From positions 1 through 61,120 of the forward strand of contig DWXO01000061.1 of NCBI GenBank assembly GCA_019119165.1: a stretch of DNA of 61,120 bases, in the 5' to 3' direction. The notes under the pieces were generated by a model. The model made no database searches. It was not told the origin of the DNA and saw nothing but the letters and a program-made list of their open reading frames with translations. This DNA is from Candidatus Flavonifractor intestinigallinarum. Lineage in GTDB: Bacteria > Bacillota > Clostridia > Oscillospirales > Oscillospiraceae. A program made the translations under genes and the position numbers. This document shows, one piece after another, positions 31,418-46,778 of the stretch. Numbering within the stretch: position 1 is the first letter of the stretch; every line of letters starts with the position of its first letter.

Positions 31418-32206
31418 TTACTTACCCAGGCGGCGGACCATTTCCTTGGCGCAGAAGGTGGCCACGTCGTCGGCGTAGGTGCCGGCGCCGAAGCCGGCGT
31501 CATAGCCCAGCTCCTTGGCCAGCGCGTGGGTGATACGGGCGCCGCCGCAGCAGAAGATGTACTTCTCGCGGACGCCCTCGGCCTCGGCCAGCTCGATGAG
31601 CTCGGTGAGGTTCTGGATGTGGACGTCCTTCTGGGTCACGGTCTGGGACACCAGCAGCACATCGGCGTTGACCTCGGCGGCCTTCTTGAGGAACTCCTCG
31701 TTGGGCACCTGGGAACCCAGGTTGTAGGCCTCGATCATCTCATAGCGCTCCAGGCCGTAGTGGCCGGCGAAGCCCTTGCGGTTCATGATGGCGTCGATGC
31801 CCACGGTATGGGCGTCGGTGCCGGTGGAGGCGCCCACCACCACCAGCTTGCGGCCCAGCCGCTCCTTCAGGAACTCGTCGGTCTCGTCCATGCCCATGGC
31901 CTCGTCGGCCACGGTCTGCACCACGATCTCGTTGTAGTTGATGGAGTGGGTGAGGGAGCCGTACACCACATAGAAGGTGAAGGCCTCATCCAGCTTCTGG
32001 CGAAGGGCCACATTGGGGTCGGCCAGGCCCATCTTCTGGGCCATGAGCACGGCGGCCGCGGCGCCCTTGTCGTCGTCCTTGACGGGCAGGGTGAAGGAGA
32101 GCTGCACCTTGCCGTCGTTCATGGTGTCGCCATAGGGTTTCAGCCGGGTCAGGTCCAGTGTGGTGTCCAAATCTTTGTCACGAATCTGATACAGTCCGGA
32201 ACTCAT
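31418..32206 (-). CDS. kamE: Lysine 5,6-aminomutase, beta (cobalamin-binding) subunit
   Basis: This 262-aa subunit shows the B12 base-off motif GTDAHTVGID (His133 ligates cobalt) and Lys144 in MNRKGFAGHYGLERY, the residue known to hold PLP in the clostridial enzyme. A Rossmann cobalamin domain follows (VLLVSQTVTQKD, FCCGGARITHALAKELGYDAGFG). With KamD it shifts the terminal amino group of beta-lysine to C5, giving 3,5-diaminohexanoate. The gene overlaps kamD by ATGA and is the last of the operon. Confidence 0.96.
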   Translation of the reverse strand: MSSGLYQIRDKDLDTTLDLTRLKPYGDTMNDGKVQLSFTLPVKDDDKGAAAAVLMAQKMGLADPNVALRQKLDEAFTFYVVYGSLTHSINYNEIVVQTVADEAMGMDETDEFLKERLGRKLVVVGASTGTDAHTVGIDAIMNRKGFAGHYGLERYEMIEAYNLGSQVPNEEFLKKAAEVNADVLLVSQTVTQKDVHIQNLTELIELAEAEGVREKYIFCCGGARITHALAKELGYDAGFGAGTYADDVATFCAKEMVRRLGK

Positions 32207-33771
32207 TTGCCGGCACCCCCTTTCATCATGGGCTCAAGGAAGGGGTTGAAGTACCCGGCGGCCTTGGTCACGACGCCGTCCAGGCCCTTGCCGCCGTCCC
32301 GAGGACGCTTGATGTCGGCAAAGATGCCCCGCTCCAGGGTCTCGAAAATGCCCAGCTGCTCGATCTGGCCCAGCAGGTCGGTAGCCTTGTGCAGCACGTC
32401 GGCGGCACGGTTCTGCATGATGCCGCCTTCCTTGAACACGATCTCGCTGCCCAGGTCGTGCATGGTGCGGAAGATGTACTGGGCGTTCTGGATGGCCAGG
32501 AAGCGGTCGGACAGGAAGGGAGTATGAATGGCCTCGGTCATCATGCCCAGCAGGTGGATCTTCTGGTTGGTCAGGATGGTCACCATGTTGAACAGGGCGT
32601 CCTGAACGTGACCGCGGAAGATATTGCCGGTCATGAACTTGGTGGGAGGCATATACTTCAGGGGAGCGTTGGGGAAGATCTCCCGGGCCATCTCGGCCTG
32701 GGCCAGCTCATACAGGAAGCCGTTCTCCACGTCGGGGTCGATCTCGAAGGCGTGACCCAGACCCATCTGCTCCTCGGGCAGGCCGGCACGCAGGGCGAAG
32801 GCCTCGTTGAGGAACTGGGAAGCCAGCACGGTGTGGGCCTCTTCCACAGCGTCGGCGGTGGTCAGGTAGTTGTCCTCGCCGGTGTTGATCACCACGCCGG
32901 CATAGGCGTTGATGGCACGGGAGAAGGACTGGTCCACCAGGGTACGCTGCATATTGATGTCGCGGAACAGGATGCCGTACAGAGCGTCGTTGAGCATCAC
33001 GTCCAGACCCTCAAAAGCGCCCATGGCGGCGATCTCGGGCATACACAGGCCGGAGCAGTAGTTACACACGCGGATGTAGCGGCCCAGCTCCTCGCCCACC
33101 TTGTCCATGGCCTCGCGCATCAGGCGGAAGTTCTCCTGGGTGGCGTAGGTGCCGCCGAAGCCCTCGGTGGTGGCGCCGTAAGGCACATAGTCCAGCAGGG
33201 ACTGGCCGGTGGTACGGATAACGGCGATAACGTCGGCGCCCTGGCGGGCGGCGGCGGTGGCCTGCACCACGTCCTCATAGATGTTGCCGGTGGCCACGAT
33301 CAGGTAGATCCAGGGGCCCTGCTTCTCGCCGCCGTGGGTGGCGATGAAGTCCTCGCGGCGCTTGCGGCGGGCGCGGATCTTGGCCAGGCTGGACCCCACG
33401 ATGGGGTCCAGGGCGGCGTGGATCTCAGCCTCGCCGTGGGTGGGCAGGGCGGTCAGGTCCAGCTTGTCGTTGGCCACGTCCTCGGCGATGGCCTGGGGGT
33501 CCTTGCCGGTCTCCACCATGGCGTTGCCGATCCAAAAGGCGGCGCCCTGAGGCAGCGCGCCCTTGTCCATCAGGTGCTCCACCACCACGTTGGGCAGGGG
33601 TACGTCGGCGGCGTCCACACCGTCGATGCCCAGCAGGCGGCAGATGGTACGCTCCACGGCTACGGTGGTGCAGCCGTCGATGAAACGCTGGGTGTCGTCC
33701 GCCACCCGGGAAGCGTGGGCGCGGGCCTGTTCCACCAGCTTAAAATCAAGGTTCAGCTTGGATTCCAACAT
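32203..33771 (-). CDS. kamD: Lysine 5,6-aminomutase, alpha subunit
   Basis: This 522-aa TIM-barrel subunit binds substrate and the adenosyl group of coenzyme B12. Family stretches include TICRLLGIDGVDAADVPLPNVVVEHL, GPWIYLIVATGNIYEDVVQATAAARQGADVIAVIR, YATQENFRLMREAMDKVGEELGRYIR and GLCMPEIAAMGAFEGLDVMLNDALYGILFRDINMQRT. Length is typical. It catalyses the second step of lysine fermentation together with KamE. It lies 84 bp downstream of kamA; that gap contains a strong hairpin, so relative expression could be tuned there. Confidence 0.96.
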   Translation of the reverse strand: MLESKLNLDFKLVEQARAHASRVADDTQRFIDGCTTVAVERTICRLLGIDGVDAADVPLPNVVVEHLMDKGALPQGAAFWIGNAMVETGKDPQAIAEDVANDKLDLTALPTHGEAEIHAALDPIVGSSLAKIRARRKRREDFIATHGGEKQGPWIYLIVATGNIYEDVVQATAAARQGADVIAVIRTTGQSLLDYVPYGATTEGFGGTYATQENFRLMREAMDKVGEELGRYIRVCNYCSGLCMPEIAAMGAFEGLDVMLNDALYGILFRDINMQRTLVDQSFSRAINAYAGVVINTGEDNYLTTADAVEEAHTVLASQFLNEAFALRAGLPEEQMGLGHAFEIDPDVENGFLYELAQAEMAREIFPNAPLKYMPPTKFMTGNIFRGHVQDALFNMVTILTNQKIHLLGMMTEAIHTPFLSDRFLAIQNAQYIFRTMHDLGSEIVFKEGGIMQNRAADVLHKATDLLGQIEQLGIFETLERGIFADIKRPRDGGKGLDGVVTKAAGYFNPFLEPMMKGGAGK

Positions 33772-33855: not shown

Positions 33856-35109
33856 TTACTCCTCGTGGTGGGAGCGCTTATGACGCTCCAGACCGGCGGG
33901 CTCCATGGACAGCGCCTGGCCGCGCTCCAGGCCGGCCACGCCCATGAGCTCCTTCTTCTTCTTGCCGGTGCAGTAGTCGCACTGACAATCGGTGTAGTGC
34001 TCGGGCTCGGTGTAAGTGGTGATAACACCCTCGTAGTTGCGCAGGATGACCTTCTTGGGGGTCTGGGAGATGACGTACTGAGGCATAACGGGGGTCTTGC
34101 CGCCGCCGCCGGGGGCGTCCACCACGAAGGTGGGCACGCAGAAGCCGGAGGTGTGGCCGCGCAGGCCCTCGATGATCTCGATGCCCTTGCTGACGGGAGT
34201 ACGGAAGTGCTCCAGGCCCATGGACAGGTCGCACTGATAGATGTAGTAAGGACGCACACGGATCTTGACCAGCTCGTTGACCAGCTTCTTCATGGTGTAG
34301 ACGCAGTCATTGATGCCGGCCAGCAGCACGCTCTGGTTGCCCAGGGGGATACCGGCGTCAGCCAGACGGGCGCAGGCGGCGGCGGACTCGGGGGTGATCT
34401 CGTTGGGATGGTTGAAGTGGGTGTTCAGCCAGATGGGGTGATACTTCTTCAGCATATTGCACAGCTCGGGGGTGATACGCTGAGGCAGCACCACGGGGGT
34501 ACGGGAGCCGATGCGGACGATCTCCACATGGGGGATCTCACGCAGCTTGGCGATGATGTACTCCAGGCGCTCGTCGGAGCAGAGCAGCGCGTCGCCGCCG
34601 GAGAGCAGCACGTCCCGGATGACGGGGGTGTTGCGGATGTACTCAATGGCCTGATCCACCTGATCCACGGGCAGGCCGGCGTCGTTCTGACCGGCGAAGC
34701 GGCGGCGGGTGCAGTGGCGGCAGTACATGGAGCACTGGTCGGTGATGAGCAGCAGGCAGCGGTCGGGATAGCGGTGGGTCAGACCGGGAGCGGGGGAGTC
34801 CTCATCCTCGTGCAGGGGGTCCAGCAGGTCGGCGGCGGACTGGTGCAGCTCCTTGGCAGTGGGAACGGCCTGGAGCCGGACGGGGTCGTGGGGATCGCCG
34901 GGCTGGATCAGGGACAGATAATAAGGAGTGATGGCCATGCGGAGGGTGCCCAGGCAGGCCTTGACGCCTTCCTCTTCCTCAGGGGTGAGCTCCACGTACT
35001 TTTTCAGGTCCTCAAGGGTCTCGATGCGGTTTTTGACTTGCCAATGCCAGTCGTTCCACTCTTCATCGGTCACGTTGGGAAACAGGATCTTGCGGCGGGA
35101 CTCTACCAT
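33856..35109 (-). CDS. kamA: L-lysine 2,3-aminomutase
   Basis: This 417-aa radical-SAM, PLP enzyme turns L-lysine into L-beta-lysine. The cluster motif is C126-SMY-C130-RH-C133, followed by TRRRFAG. Other family blocks are YRYPDRCL-like THRYPDRCLLLITD, DVLLSGGDALL, RIGSRTPVVLPQRIT, NTHFNHPNEIT and the PLP lysine in APGGGGKTPVMPQYV. Near the C-terminus YTDCQCDYC supplies the structural zinc ligands. It starts the pathway and lies third in the kce-kdd-kamA-kamD-kamE series, 189 bp after kdd. AAAGGATG precedes the start. Confidence 0.97.
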   Translation of the reverse strand: MVESRRKILFPNVTDEEWNDWHWQVKNRIETLEDLKKYVELTPEEEEGVKACLGTLRMAITPYYLSLIQPGDPHDPVRLQAVPTAKELHQSAADLLDPLHEDEDSPAPGLTHRYPDRCLLLITDQCSMYCRHCTRRRFAGQNDAGLPVDQVDQAIEYIRNTPVIRDVLLSGGDALLCSDERLEYIIAKLREIPHVEIVRIGSRTPVVLPQRITPELCNMLKKYHPIWLNTHFNHPNEITPESAAACARLADAGIPLGNQSVLLAGINDCVYTMKKLVNELVKIRVRPYYIYQCDLSMGLEHFRTPVSKGIEIIEGLRGHTSGFCVPTFVVDAPGGGGKTPVMPQYVISQTPKKVILRNYEGVITTYTEPEHYTDCQCDYCTGKKKKELMGVAGLERGQALSMEPAGLERHKRSHHEE

Positions 35110-35298: not shown

Positions 35299-36339
35299 TT
35301 ACAGATACTTCTTCTCGAAGTAGGCCTTCAGCTGGGGATTCTCACGCAGCTCGGACAGGGTGATCTCGGCGTGATCCTTGGTGTAGCCGTTGCCCACGAT
35401 CATGGTGACGTCCTTGCCGCAGCCCTCGGCGCCCAGGGCGGCCTTGGCGAAATCGGTGGCCATGGAGAAGAAGTACACCACGCCGTTGTCATGGACGGGC
35501 AGGATGGCGGCCATCTCGCAGGCGGGCACGTTGACGATCAGGATGGACACGTCGTACTCCTTGCCGCCGTTGACGGCCAGGGACTTCTCCAGCACCTCGG
35601 TGGGGTTGGTGGCGGAGCCTACGATGGCGTGGTGGCAGAGGTTCATGCTCTTGAGCAGGTCGGCGTCCTCCTGGCAGATGACCAGAGCAACCACGTTGCC
35701 GGTGGGGCCGACGCGCTTCATGGCCTCGTAGCAGCACATCATGCCGCCCTTACCGGCGCCGCCCAGGATGAGCACGGAGTCACCGGGCTTCACCAGCTTG
35801 GCGGTCTGGGCGGGAGCGCCGGCCACGTCCAGAGCGGCCAGAGCCAGCTCCTCGCTCATGTCGTCGGGCAGCTTGGCGTACAGGCCGGACTCAAACAGGA
35901 TGGCCTGGGCGTCCACGTCCACACGGTCGATCTCGGGGTGGATGGCCTTAATCTTGTTGATCTTCAGGGGAGTGAGGGACAGGGAGACCAGAGAGGCAAT
36001 CTTGTCGCCCACCTTCAGGTCGATCTTGCCCTGCAGGTCCTCGCCGATCTCGCGGACGGTGCCGATGAACATACCGCCGGAACCGGTGACGGGGTTCTGC
36101 ATCTTGCCGCGCTCGTTGACGATATCCAGAATCATCTGCTCGGTCTTGGCCAGGTCCTTCTCGCAGGCCTCATAGATCTGAGTGAAGGAAGCGGAGTCGA
36201 TGTTCAGAGCGGAAACGTCGCACAGGATCTCATTGGAGTAGCACTCCATGGTGTTGTCGATCTTCTTGGCAGCCTGGGTCAGCAGGCCCTTGGGCTCGAT
36301 GACGCGGTGAGTGCCGTACTTGTTGCCTTTCTTCTGCAT
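35299..36339 (-). CDS. kdd: L-erythro-3,5-diaminohexanoate dehydrogenase
   Basis: This 346-aa NAD(P)-dependent enzyme oxidatively deaminates 3,5-diaminohexanoate to 3-keto-5-aminohexanoate. It begins MQKKGNKYGTHRVIEPKGLLTQAAKKIDN. The nucleotide-binding fold carries the glycine motif VLILGGAGKGGMMCCYEA, followed by the strand NVVALVICQEDADLL. GTVREIGEDLQGKIDLKVGDKIASLVSLSLTPL is a GroES-like segment. Length and order match Kdd of lysine fermenters. It is encoded between kce and kamA. GGAGGAA precedes the ATG. Confidence 0.95.
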   Translation of the reverse strand: MQKKGNKYGTHRVIEPKGLLTQAAKKIDNTMECYSNEILCDVSALNIDSASFTQIYEACEKDLAKTEQMILDIVNERGKMQNPVTGSGGMFIGTVREIGEDLQGKIDLKVGDKIASLVSLSLTPLKINKIKAIHPEIDRVDVDAQAILFESGLYAKLPDDMSEELALAALDVAGAPAQTAKLVKPGDSVLILGGAGKGGMMCCYEAMKRVGPTGNVVALVICQEDADLLKSMNLCHHAIVGSATNPTEVLEKSLAVNGGKEYDVSILIVNVPACEMAAILPVHDNGVVYFFSMATDFAKAALGAEGCGKDVTMIVGNGYTKDHAEITLSELRENPQLKAYFEKKYL

Positions 36340-36415: not shown

Positions 36416-37234
36416 TCAGGCCAGGGACAGGATCTTCCGGGCCTCGTCGGGGGTGGCGATCTCGCGGCCCAGCTCCTTGGCCAGGCGGACCACCTTGGCA
36501 ACCAGCTCGCCGTTGGAGGCGGCCTTGTGGCCCTTCTCCAGGTAGATGTTGTCCTCAAAGCCGACCCGGACGTTGCCGCCCATCACGATACCGGCGGCCA
36601 CCATGGGCCAGGCGCCCCGGCCGATGCCGGTGACGGTCCAGGTGGAACCGGCGGGGATCTGCTTCACCAGGTAGTCCAGGTTGCCCACGGTGGCGGGGGT
36701 GCAGCCGGACACGCCCAGCACGAAGTTGAACTGCATGGGAGCGCCGGGGACCAGACCCTTGTTGGCCATGTTCACGATGGTGTCCAGGTGACCGATCTCA
36801 AAGCACTCATACTCGGGCTTGATGTTGTTTTCCAGCATCCGCTTGCCGAAGGCCCGCATGGTGGGCATATCGTTGACGAAGATGTCGTCGCCGAAGTTGC
36901 AGGTGCCGCAGTCCAGCGTGGCCATCTCGGGGCACAGCTCGGTGGGCTGGAGCCGCTCCTCGGGGGTCATGCCGGTGGCGCCGCCGGTGGAGGGGATCAG
37001 GATGACGCCGGGGCAGGCCTCCTTGATGGCGTCCAGGATCACACGGAACCGCTCCCGGTCCTGGGTGGGGGTACCATCGTCCTCCCGGACGTGGACGTGA
37101 ATGACGGCGGCGCCTGCTTCAAAGGCGCTCTTGGCCTCGCGGACCATTTCCTCCACGGTGTAGGGGACAGCGGGATTGTGCTCCTTGGTGACCTCTGCGC
37201 CGCAGATGGCCGCGGTGATGATAAGCTTTTCCAT
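36416..37234 (-). CDS. kce: 3-keto-5-aminohexanoate cleavage enzyme
   Basis: This 272-aa zinc-dependent TIM-barrel enzyme condenses 3-keto-5-aminohexanoate with acetyl-CoA, yielding 3-aminobutyryl-CoA and acetoacetate. Motifs seen: AAICGAEVTKEHNPAVPYT, the zinc pair in AAVIHVHVRE (HxH), STGGATGMTPEERL, ATLDCGTCNFGDDIFVNDM, ECFEIGHLDT and GNVRVGFEDNIY. It is the first gene after the lysine riboswitch; CGAGGAGG lies 7 bp upstream of the ATG and 2 bp beyond the terminator's U-run. Confidence 0.96.
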   Translation of the reverse strand: MEKLIITAAICGAEVTKEHNPAVPYTVEEMVREAKSAFEAGAAVIHVHVREDDGTPTQDRERFRVILDAIKEACPGVILIPSTGGATGMTPEERLQPTELCPEMATLDCGTCNFGDDIFVNDMPTMRAFGKRMLENNIKPEYECFEIGHLDTIVNMANKGLVPGAPMQFNFVLGVSGCTPATVGNLDYLVKQIPAGSTWTVTGIGRGAWPMVAAGIVMGGNVRVGFEDNIYLEKGHKAASNGELVAKVVRLAKELGREIATPDEARKILSLA

Positions 37235-37248
37235 GACACGCCTCCTCG

Positions 37249-37299
37249 AAAAAATAAGCTACCCCGCCGGTAGGAGATTCCTTCCTCTGGCGGGATAGC
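37249..37299 (-). terminator. Riboswitch-controlled terminator upstream of kce
   Basis: On the minus strand GCUAUCCCGCC (37299-37289) pairs with GGCGGGGUAGC (37268-37258), 11 bp with one G-U, followed by UUAUUUUUU. An inner AGGA/UCCU pair caps it. Its first five bases belong to the second copy of the aptamer's 3' strand. Confidence 0.85.
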
Positions 37300-37540
37300 G
37301 CTTCATGAACAAAAAAACACTACTCATGTCCGCGGGAGGGGAGACTCTCGTTCAGACACAAATAGCGCTTCATGTGACTCATGACAATCCGTAAGCACTG
37401 GGCCCACGGCTCAGGGGGAGGGCTGTACGATTCACGTCCCCCTTCGGCGGAGCGGACATTCACAGAGTACATCGGGCTCGCCTGCCCTTGTCATTGCTCT
37501 GCTACCTTGCGCTCCGCGCCTCTATCCATGCGTGTTATTC
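37289..37540 (-). promoter_or_regulatory. Lysine riboswitch (L box) of the kce-kdd-kamADE operon
   Basis: Reading the minus strand, the core matches the L-box consensus: GGAUAGAGGCGCGGAGCG (P1/P2 5' side), CAGAG...CUCUG with a GGGC/GCCC hairpin between, CGCUCCGCCGAAGG (P2 3' side), AGGGGGA/UCCCCCU (P3), GAGCCGUGGGCC...UACGG (P4), UCAUG/CAUGA (P5) and AGCGCUAU closing P1. The whole P5/P1 3' strand, CAUGAAGCGCUAU, occurs at 37374-37362 and again at 37307-37295. The distal copy pairs better with the P1 5' strand (CUAUCC versus CUAUUU) and excludes the terminator. Lysine binding is therefore expected to raise expression. Confidence 0.88.
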
Positions 37541-37555
37541 ACTTTTGACAAATTC

Positions 37556-37584
37556 ACTATAACTCAGGCCATTTGGTTTGTCAA
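37556..37584 (-). promoter_or_regulatory. Promoter of the kce operon
   Basis: On the minus strand this reads TTGACA, 17 bp, TATAGT. The start would be near 37548, about 20 nt before the riboswitch. Confidence 0.85.
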
Positions 37585-46174: not shown

Positions 46175-46248
46175 ATTTTTGTATAAAGAAAACCACTCGC
46201 TGGGCGAGTGGTTCAAAAAAGCCTATGGCGATGAAAAAGCTAAAGAAA

Positions 46249-46307
46249 CTCCCTTTGCTATAATTTGAAGTGCGGTCTGCCAACTGCACTAGAAATAGCA
46301 AAGGGAG
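46249..46307 (+). promoter_or_regulatory. Translation-blocking stem in the transposase leader
   Basis: CTCCCTTTGCTAT (46249-46261) pairs perfectly with ATAGCAAAGGGAG (46295-46307), which contains the ribosome-binding site AAAGGGAG. An inner AGTGC/GCACT pair extends it. IS200 elements are known to hide their translation start this way. Confidence 0.8.
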
Positions 46308-46316
46308 GACATTCAG

Positions 46317-46778
46317 ATGGGACTGAATGATATCAATAGTTTATCTCATACACGCTGGAATTGCAAATATCATATCGTATTTGCGCCGAAATACCGTAGG
46401 AAGGTATTTTATCGAGAAAAGAAAGCAGCAATAGGAAAAATACTGCGGCAGTTGTGCGAGTGGAAAGGAGTAAAAATCATAGAAGCGGAAGCGTGCCCGA
46501 ACCATATCCACCTGTTTATAGAGATACCACCGAAAATGTCGGTATCGCACTTTATGGGGTATCTGAAGGGAAAGAGCAGCACAATGCTATATGAGCAATT
46601 CGGCGAGTTGAAATACAAGTACCGGAACCGAGAATTTTGGTGCAGAGGGTATTATGTGGATACGGTAGGAAAAAACGAGAGCCGAATAGCGGAGTATGTG
46701 AGGAACCAACTAAAAGAGGATGAGATGGGAGAACAATTGAGAATCCCATCTAACAGCCCGTTTACGGGCGGCAAGTAA
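46317..46778 (+). CDS. tnpA: IS200-type HUH transposase TnpA
   Basis: This 153-aa enzyme has the HUH motif NHIHLFIEI (His63, His65) and the catalytic tyrosine in RIAEYVRNQL (Tyr127). The N-terminal SLSHTRWNCKYHIVFAPKYRRKVF and REFWCRGYYVDTVG are family hallmarks. It cuts and rejoins single-stranded DNA at the element's end hairpins, preferring lagging-strand templates. All catalytic residues are intact, so it may be active and could act on other hairpin-bounded DNA in trans. Codon use is more AT-rich than neighbours, a sign of recent arrival. Confidence 0.95.
   Translation: MGLNDINSLSHTRWNCKYHIVFAPKYRRKVFYREKKAAIGKILRQLCEWKGVKIIEAEACPNHIHLFIEIPPKMSVSHFMGYLKGKSSTMLYEQFGELKYKYRNREFWCRGYYVDTVGKNESRIAEYVRNQLKEDEMGEQLRIPSNSPFTGGK

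Follow-up and report, generated by a model that had tools for sequence, protein, structure and literature searches.

Why would a riboswitch leader carry the strand that closes its aptamer twice? The question is raised by a leader on the minus strand of the window, by which is meant the whole stretch of 61,120 nucleotides analysed here, in which a lysine aptamer precedes an operon for lysine degradation and in which an earlier note had proposed a strand-exchange switch. The elements needed to approach the question are the following.

37556 to 37584, minus strand: promoter-like site TTGACA-17-TATAGT, ending 24 nt ahead of the aptamer start (11 of 12 matches; 1 found versus 0.2 expected)
37355 to 37532, minus strand: RF00168 lysine riboswitch aptamer with the proximal copy as its closing strand (64.2 bits, gathering threshold 30)
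37522 to 37531, minus strand: P1 5' strand GCAUGGAUAG (core GGAUAG, 37527-37522), common to both closures (Rfam alignment, pairing table)
37380 to 37384, minus strand: P5 5' strand UCAUG, which can pair with CAUG of either copy (Rfam alignment, folds)
36416 to 37234, minus strand: kce, 3-keto-5-aminohexanoate cleavage enzyme, first gene of the operon (NF052387, 419 bits, cut-off 382)
35299 to 36339, minus strand: kdd, L-erythro-3,5-diaminohexanoate dehydrogenase (NF052381, 272 bits, cut-off 200)
33856 to 35109, minus strand: kamA, lysine 2,3-aminomutase (TIGR03820, 622 bits, cut-off 525)
32203 to 33771, minus strand: kamD, lysine 5,6-aminomutase alpha (NF052384, 914 bits, cut-off 600)
31418 to 32206, minus strand: kamE, lysine 5,6-aminomutase beta (NF052385, 391 bits, cut-off 280)

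The promoter-like site (37584-37556) is located 322 nt upstream of the start of kce at 37234, the RF00168 match covers the model from 1 to 182 of 182, and all five operon proteins exceed their NCBIfam equivalog cut-offs, the pathway being lysine fermentation. From the aptamer family and the operon we infer that the ligand is lysine. Two aptamers in tandem, considered as a candidate, were ruled out by the single RF00168 match in the leader. Elsewhere in the window, on the plus strand (46191-46304), an Rfam match to STnc490 (75.9 bits) is found directly upstream of an open reading frame (46317-46778), which we take to resemble an IS200/IS605-type TnpA transposase; this 'Hfq-binding sRNA' match is probably an insertion sequence leader.

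The repeated strand consists of two copies.

37362 to 37374, minus strand: proximal copy CAUGAAGCGCUAU, providing the P5 3' side, J5/1 and the P1 3' strand; its GAAGCGCUAU doubles as the 5' arm of a first hairpin, T1 (Rfam alignment, fold, repeat search)
37295 to 37307, minus strand: distal copy CAUGAAGCGCUAU (CUAUCC at 37298-37293), a putative alternative closing strand of the aptamer; its GCUAU is the stem base of a second hairpin, T2 (conservation, pairing counts)

In an exact-match search of the 61,120-base window, CATGAAGCGCTAT occurs twice, at 37295-37307 and 37362-37374 on the minus strand, so that the starts of the proximal (37374-37362) and the distal CAUGAAGCGCUAU (37307-37295) are 67 nt apart, as the earlier note had described. 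Its reading of the surrounding letters is equally borne out: CATGAGT stands 5' of both copies (37383-37377 and 37328-37322), the P1 5' strand GGATAG (37527-37522) meets CTATTT as the proximal and CTATCC as the distal 3' strand, and the distal GCTAT (37299-37295) is seen in the fold as the base of a terminator stem. Allowing up to two mismatches, the 13-mer is found at four places in the window versus 0.85 expected.

Seventeen of 19 congeneric genomes have an orthologous leader, as does the window's own, and both copies are present in all 18 of these leaders, so that the loss of the distal copy among relatives, which the earlier note would have held against its proposal, is not seen in the genus. 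The distal 13-mer is invariant in 18/18 and the proximal one in 17/18, the remaining leader (G011) having a single A-to-G change. The distal 6-mer reads CTATCC in eight, CTATCT in six, CTATCA in three and CTATTC in one of the 18; the perfect distal match to GGAUAG therefore exists in the window and is not a fixed feature of the genus, as exact CUAUCC is present in only 8/18, and the sixth distal pair is lost in the three leaders with CUAUCA. Among 21 other lysine aptamers of the genus, taken as a control, the best match to the 13-mer within 260 nt downstream has five mismatches in 17 cases, six in two, four in one and three in one, the latter (L009) at a distance of 200 nt. A chance repeat is ruled out by the presence of both copies in 18/18 congeners, the repeat counts and the 21 control aptamers; the repeat of the closing strand is real. 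The second lysine aptamer of the window's genome (L001, G000:C92:7169-7341), which is without a second copy and is followed by a separate downstream hairpin with a T-rich tail, is probably of the ordinary OFF type.

What lies downstream of the aptamer are two hairpins, each of which begins with one of the copies.

37314 to 37371, minus strand: T1, first terminator-like hairpin with a lower stem of 19 bp and U7 at 37317-37311 (fold of 37371-37311: -26.2 kcal/mol, z -6.6)
37258 to 37299, minus strand: T2, predicted second terminator, followed by UUAUUUUUU at 37257-37249 (fold -27.6 kcal/mol, z -4.4)

Both are much lower in folding energy than shuffled sequence (z -6.6 and -4.4). When 37385-37250 is folded in one piece (-62.3 kcal/mol, z -6.7), T1 arises from pairing of the proximal GAAGCGCUAUUUGUGUCUG with the spacer as far as U7, and the distal copy opens T2. 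Among the 18 congeneric leaders the pairs of T1 are retained in 423/431 cells, with a 3' arm that varies mostly by one-sided, pairing-preserving changes, and those of T2 in 238/300 cells, with compensatory types in the outer stem and a variable top. A consensus scan lists one terminator-like site, inside T2, and T1 is absent from its list. Judged by folding, by their U-rich tails and by conservation, two predicted intrinsic terminator hairpins stand downstream of a single aptamer, and since the proximal strand is either in P1 or in T1 and the distal strand either in P1 or in T2, aptamer closure and terminators share strands. The proposal that only the distal choice blocks termination has consequently to be given up: it is the proximal copy that forms the 5' arm of T1, a hairpin with a U7 tail, and proximal closure would therefore oppose T1. 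Neither is the proximal strand the weaker closer it had been taken for, as extension of P1 gives 10 pairs including G-U (GCAUGGAUAG:CUAUUUGUGU) versus six for the distal strand.

Comparison beyond the genus was based on 40 distinct tandem leaders. Of 100 distinct lysine-aptamer leaders, 35 were assigned on the basis of a second copy with at most three mismatches to the proximal 13-mer, with L056 and L202 dropped and L154 and L174 (four mismatches) kept by hand, and five further ones were added via Rfam. T1 is part of the unconstrained minimum fold in 39/40 of these leaders, T2 in 35/40 and both in 35/40. In the Oscillibacter leaders L085, L087 and L084 the T1 hairpin is retained and its U-run is gone (CCCCCUUAUG or UUCCUUAUG after the arm), so that it is probably no terminator there; such a hairpin fits a structural role of T1 as an extension of P5.

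This anatomy leads us to lean, with somewhat better than even confidence, towards a lysine-ON switch with two checkpoints, T1 being countered by proximal closure, T2 by distal closure, and strand exchange taking place in between. Without lysine, the proximal copy would fold into T1 and, in RNA that is read through, the distal copy into T2. With lysine, the proximal copy would close the aptamer first and deprive T1 of its 5' arm; once the polymerase has passed T1, the distal copy would emerge and take over closure by strand exchange, the P5 5' strand pairing with the distal CAUG and the P1 5' strand with the distal CUAUCC. The proximal copy could then return to the T1 hairpin, by now a harmless extension of P5, while T2 without its 5' arm would let the lysine-fermentation genes be transcribed. 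Of the switch originally proposed, the closure by either copy and the exclusion between distal closure and T2 are retained, while the choice between a silent and a productive closure looks rather like two successive checkpoints.

The ON direction fits the operon and the anatomy. Many terminator-bearing lysine riboswitches are OFF switches, and the fold accommodates T2 alongside proximal closure, so that one can conceive of a lysine-bound proximal closure that frees T2 while the apo RNA reads through. In the best fold without lysine, however, both T1 and T2 are formed, in the window as in 35/40 leaders, and the apo RNA should therefore stop; as the genes moreover degrade lysine, we regard this inverse direction as highly improbable. 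The accessible part of PMC5584792 likewise states, citing another reference, that lysine riboswitches before catabolic genes act positively.

The role assigned to the distal copy depends on its partner, and pairing was counted in 32 representatives of the 40 tandem leaders, eight near-identical Flavonifractor leaders being left out. The distal six bases pair with the P1 5' strand in 184/192 cells and with the 3' arm of T1 in 160/192; cells served by one partner exclusively number 27 for P1 and three for the T1 3' arm, the latter in L173, L107 and L126. Counted over 19 distinct combinations, the figures are 108/114 for P1 versus 95/114 for the T1 arm, with 15 versus two exclusive cells. The discrimination between the partners is confined to the two outer positions of the distal six, which harbour all of the 32/192 mismatches with the T1 3' arm, compared with 8/192 mismatches with P1. 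Where P1 begins with GG, the distal strand mostly ends in CC (Oscillibacter, L120, L130, L154, L157 and about half of Flavonifractor), the exceptions being CT, CA or TC in other Flavonifractor, TC in L078 and L079 and CG in L081; where it begins with GA, the distal letters are UC (L134, L166, L167, L168, L174, L123), with CG in L173; and where it begins with CA, they are UG (L092, L094, L095), while AG with UG in L107 and L126 mispairs. Distal mispairs with P1 occur in L173, L107, L126 and L081. The distal letters track the P1 5' strand, an observation that upholds the earlier claim that either copy can close the aptamer, distal closure being incompatible with T2, and the sequence comparison thus supports a distal copy able to close P1.

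Whole-segment shuffling of the partners reached the value of the P1(6):distal pairing in 693 of 20,000 trials for the 32 representatives, in 831 for the 23 non-Flavonifractor ones and in 235 for the 29 without L107, L126 and L173, figures that are not probabilities because the rows are related. Pairing of the P1 extension with the distal strand beyond six base pairs finds no support (40/92 cells versus a shuffled mean of 42.6). The proximal P1 extension is weakly above shuffles (49/76 cells, 1,751/20,000; 919 without L107, L126 and L173), and so is the P1(6):proximal pairing (46/48 cells, 1,704/20,000); past six bases, P1 has the proximal strand as its sole partner, Oscillibacter leaders having GUGU/ACGC versus GUAU/AUGC. 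Covariation between P5 and the distal copy is not significant (32/36 cells, 1,686/20,000 shuffles; 24/28 cells, equal to the shuffled mean, without L107, L126 and L173), and the argument for this pairing is therefore one of conservation only. It is partial in L085 (GAUG), L120 (AUUG) and L130 (AAUG), and in L168 UUGCG replaces RAGYG.

The same counts bear on a relay that follows attenuator logic (1:2, 2:3, 3:4), in which lysine would lock the proximal copy in P1, the freed 3' arm of T1 would act as an antiterminator on the distal copy and the distal copy would never join the aptamer. The T1 3' arm can pair with the distal copy because both copies share that partner; as read from the sequence of the window, GUAGUGUUUU can form 10 pairs with GAAGCGCUAU, several of them G-U, and two like copies would be accounted for without any strand exchange. 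When tested as attenuator-type segments, segment 2 pairs with segment 3 in the 160/192 cells given above, and the T1 arm starts with AA in 12/32 representatives, where the relay would need UU. The excess of mismatches with the T1 3' arm over those with P1 speaks against this route, which also leaves the distal CAUG unexplained and is costlier in computed energy than distal closure in 36/40 leaders. It is cheaper by 3-6 kcal/mol in the remaining four, namely L092, L094 and L095, with their near-identical copies, and L087. As the general explanation we consider the relay unlikely; it may act in addition, and may be the main route in leaders of the L092 type.

With respect to the function of the distal unit, the letters that T2 itself requires have to be separated from those that it does not. 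Across 22 diverged leaders, conservation covers the unit itself, as UGRAGCGCU[AG]U, and does not extend to its flanks, the C and A of the distal CAUG being weakly conserved across genera (0.5 and 1.0 bits in the 22-leader profile). The RAG of the distal copy is paired within the T2 fold in 24/40 leaders, and its conservation there needs no aptamer. The T2 fold uses at least three of the CAUG positions in 4/40 leaders only, and in the window T2 begins at GCUAU, with the invariant CAUGAAGC outside its stem; CAUG and, in the window, CAUGAAGC are therefore left unexplained by T2.

These observations also weigh on the simplest account of a second hairpin, according to which T2 is a tandem duplicate of T1 that serves as a leaky or constitutive second stop to lower basal expression, its match to P1 being inherited and unused. 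A tighter OFF state would be sufficient reason for two terminators, near-identical repeats of the whole T1 unit in L094 and L095 suggest duplication as the source, and the position of RAG in the T2 stem is in line with it. On the other hand, a lysine-blind T2 of -27.6 kcal/mol with a U-rich tail would defeat activation, the distal letters still match P1 in diverged genera, and the distal CAUGAAGC is invariant in 18/18 congeners although outside the stem. While the distal letters might be no more than relics of a duplicated terminator, a mere back-up function of T2 appears to us quite unlikely.

The two-checkpoint switch was further considered in terms of folding energies, computed with ViennaRNA for the 40 leaders and comprising secondary structure without tertiary terms; the rows L094, L120, L130, L154, L173, L174 and L107, which offer no match to the tail pattern, stop past T2 or next to it, and the T2 fold values of L021 and L154 are doubtful with respect to tail placement. 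In 36/40 leaders, the exceptions being L087, L092, L094 and L095, it costs less to close the aptamer distally than to close it proximally while T2 is barred, with a median difference of 7.6 kcal/mol; distal closure is cheap because the T1 hairpin persists in it as an extension of P5. A state without P1 nevertheless lies below distal closure in 40/40 leaders (median 8.8, range 0.9 to 26.8 kcal/mol), in the window (-120.0) by 7.6 kcal/mol, and the unconstrained minimum of the window (-122.8) has the P1 5' strand paired elsewhere and keeps T1 and T2. At the end of T1, the proximally closed aptamer of the window is 5.1 kcal/mol above T1. As the state without P1 is lower in energy, lysine binding, tertiary contacts or kinetics must pay for closure; in the switch proposed here, the ligand together with tertiary contacts may pay at both checkpoints.

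How widespread the arrangement is was assessed by a Kce-based scan of named genomes, in which the best 80 of 565 relatives gave 80 loci. Among these best 80, a lysine aptamer is located upstream in 75 loci, 70 of which were identified by pattern and five by Rfam, which was applied to the 10 loci missed by pattern; one of the five loci without an aptamer, L132, has only 402 bases upstream. The tandem form is present in 32 of these 75 aptamer-bearing kce leaders and in six more from whole genomes including the window. The second copy follows the first after 53-90 nt and in most cases starts a second terminator; L107, L126 and L173, whose second copy is without a clear T2, are doubtful members. 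A second kce of Flavonifractor plautii ATCC 29863 (L090, G005:C154), 91% identical, is without a lysine aptamer in the fetched flank.

In single-copy leaders the P1 3' strand continues into the only terminator, as read by eye for AGCGCUAUUGGUCAA...UUGACCGAUAGCGCC-U6 in L097, and a closed P1 would therefore exclude termination. As these single-terminator relatives show the same exclusion between P1 and terminator, T2 would repeat an existing ON design. Many of the leaders L096-L148, mostly from rumen Clostridia, are kal-kce lysine-aptamer leaders of this kind, with one terminator and no second copy, and offer a ready-made comparison group for tandem leaders.

A Kce tree was built by a quick method from 90 rows, of which 38 are tandem, 47 single and five without an aptamer; on this tree, which leaves room for gene transfer, the tandem state needs six changes, or five without the five aptamer-less rows, four of them forced by starred branches. 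That duplication was the route is suggested by L092, L094 and L095, which sit in a clade dominated by single-terminator leaders and each contain two nearly identical T1 units. The metagenome-assembled genome SIG484 (L094, L095) contains two kal-kce loci that encode identical Kce and resemble each other in their tandem leaders; in both leaders the distal unit is a near-identical T1 repeat from which the P5 5' strand is gone. Taken together, one core would be read twice: duplicated 3' strands of P5, J5/1 and P1 would pass the ligand-bound aptamer from one closing strand to the other and release two terminators in turn, with the T1 hairpin recycled as an extension of P5, in an arrangement that gut Clostridia acquired or lost on several occasions, probably through duplication of a terminator unit. 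For this combined reading, including its evolutionary part, we see close to an even chance.

Parts of this design have precedents. In the adenine pbuE riboswitch, a simple ON switch, the 3' strand of P1 serves as 5' arm of the terminator, and the kal-kce leaders without a second copy are built alike; the exclusion at each terminator is the same here, yet it is iterated, one core being served by two closing strands and facing two terminators. Aptamer family and pathway are those of the L box RF00168 before kal and kce in PMC5584792; the accessible part of that paper names operons of Thermoanaerobacter, kal-kce of C. sticklandii and kal of F. nucleatum and describes neither a duplicated closing strand nor a second terminator, and the word terminator is absent from its main text. 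Tandem riboswitches, with 14 double lysine riboswitches given in the accessible part of a review (PMC9481103), also place two serial terminators under one ligand, for which a sharper response is expected, but according to that part they repeat whole aptamers, while only the 3' closing strand is repeated here around a single ligand core; instead of two complete aptamers, the leader holds one RF00168 match. The c-di-GMP-I riboswitch Bc1 (PMC11218506) similarly has one aptamer followed by two terminators, in its case 28 bp apart, though the accessible text describes no duplicated aptamer strand and reports no response to c-di-GMP in vitro. Tandem terminators are shared with the attenuated rimP leader as well, for which no metabolite aptamer is named in the accessible text (PMC2965389). 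While lysine riboswitches before kal-kce, a single aptamer with dual terminators (Bc1) and tandems of whole aptamers are thus known, what appears to be new is the repeated closing strand that would serve two terminators: no description of a duplicated lysine-aptamer closing strand that addresses two terminators was found in the open-access literature searched.

About 13 nt of the sensor are repeated in this leader, compared with the whole sensor in the tandem riboswitches covered by the accessible part of the review (PMC9481103). A repeated closing strand would give one sensor two decision points and a tighter OFF state, possibly with a steeper or two-step response. If true, it would represent a compact design rule, show a ligand-bound aptamer exchanging strands in nature and provide a test bed for cotranscriptional folding. 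The finding also suggests how gut Clostridia may gate lysine fermentation.
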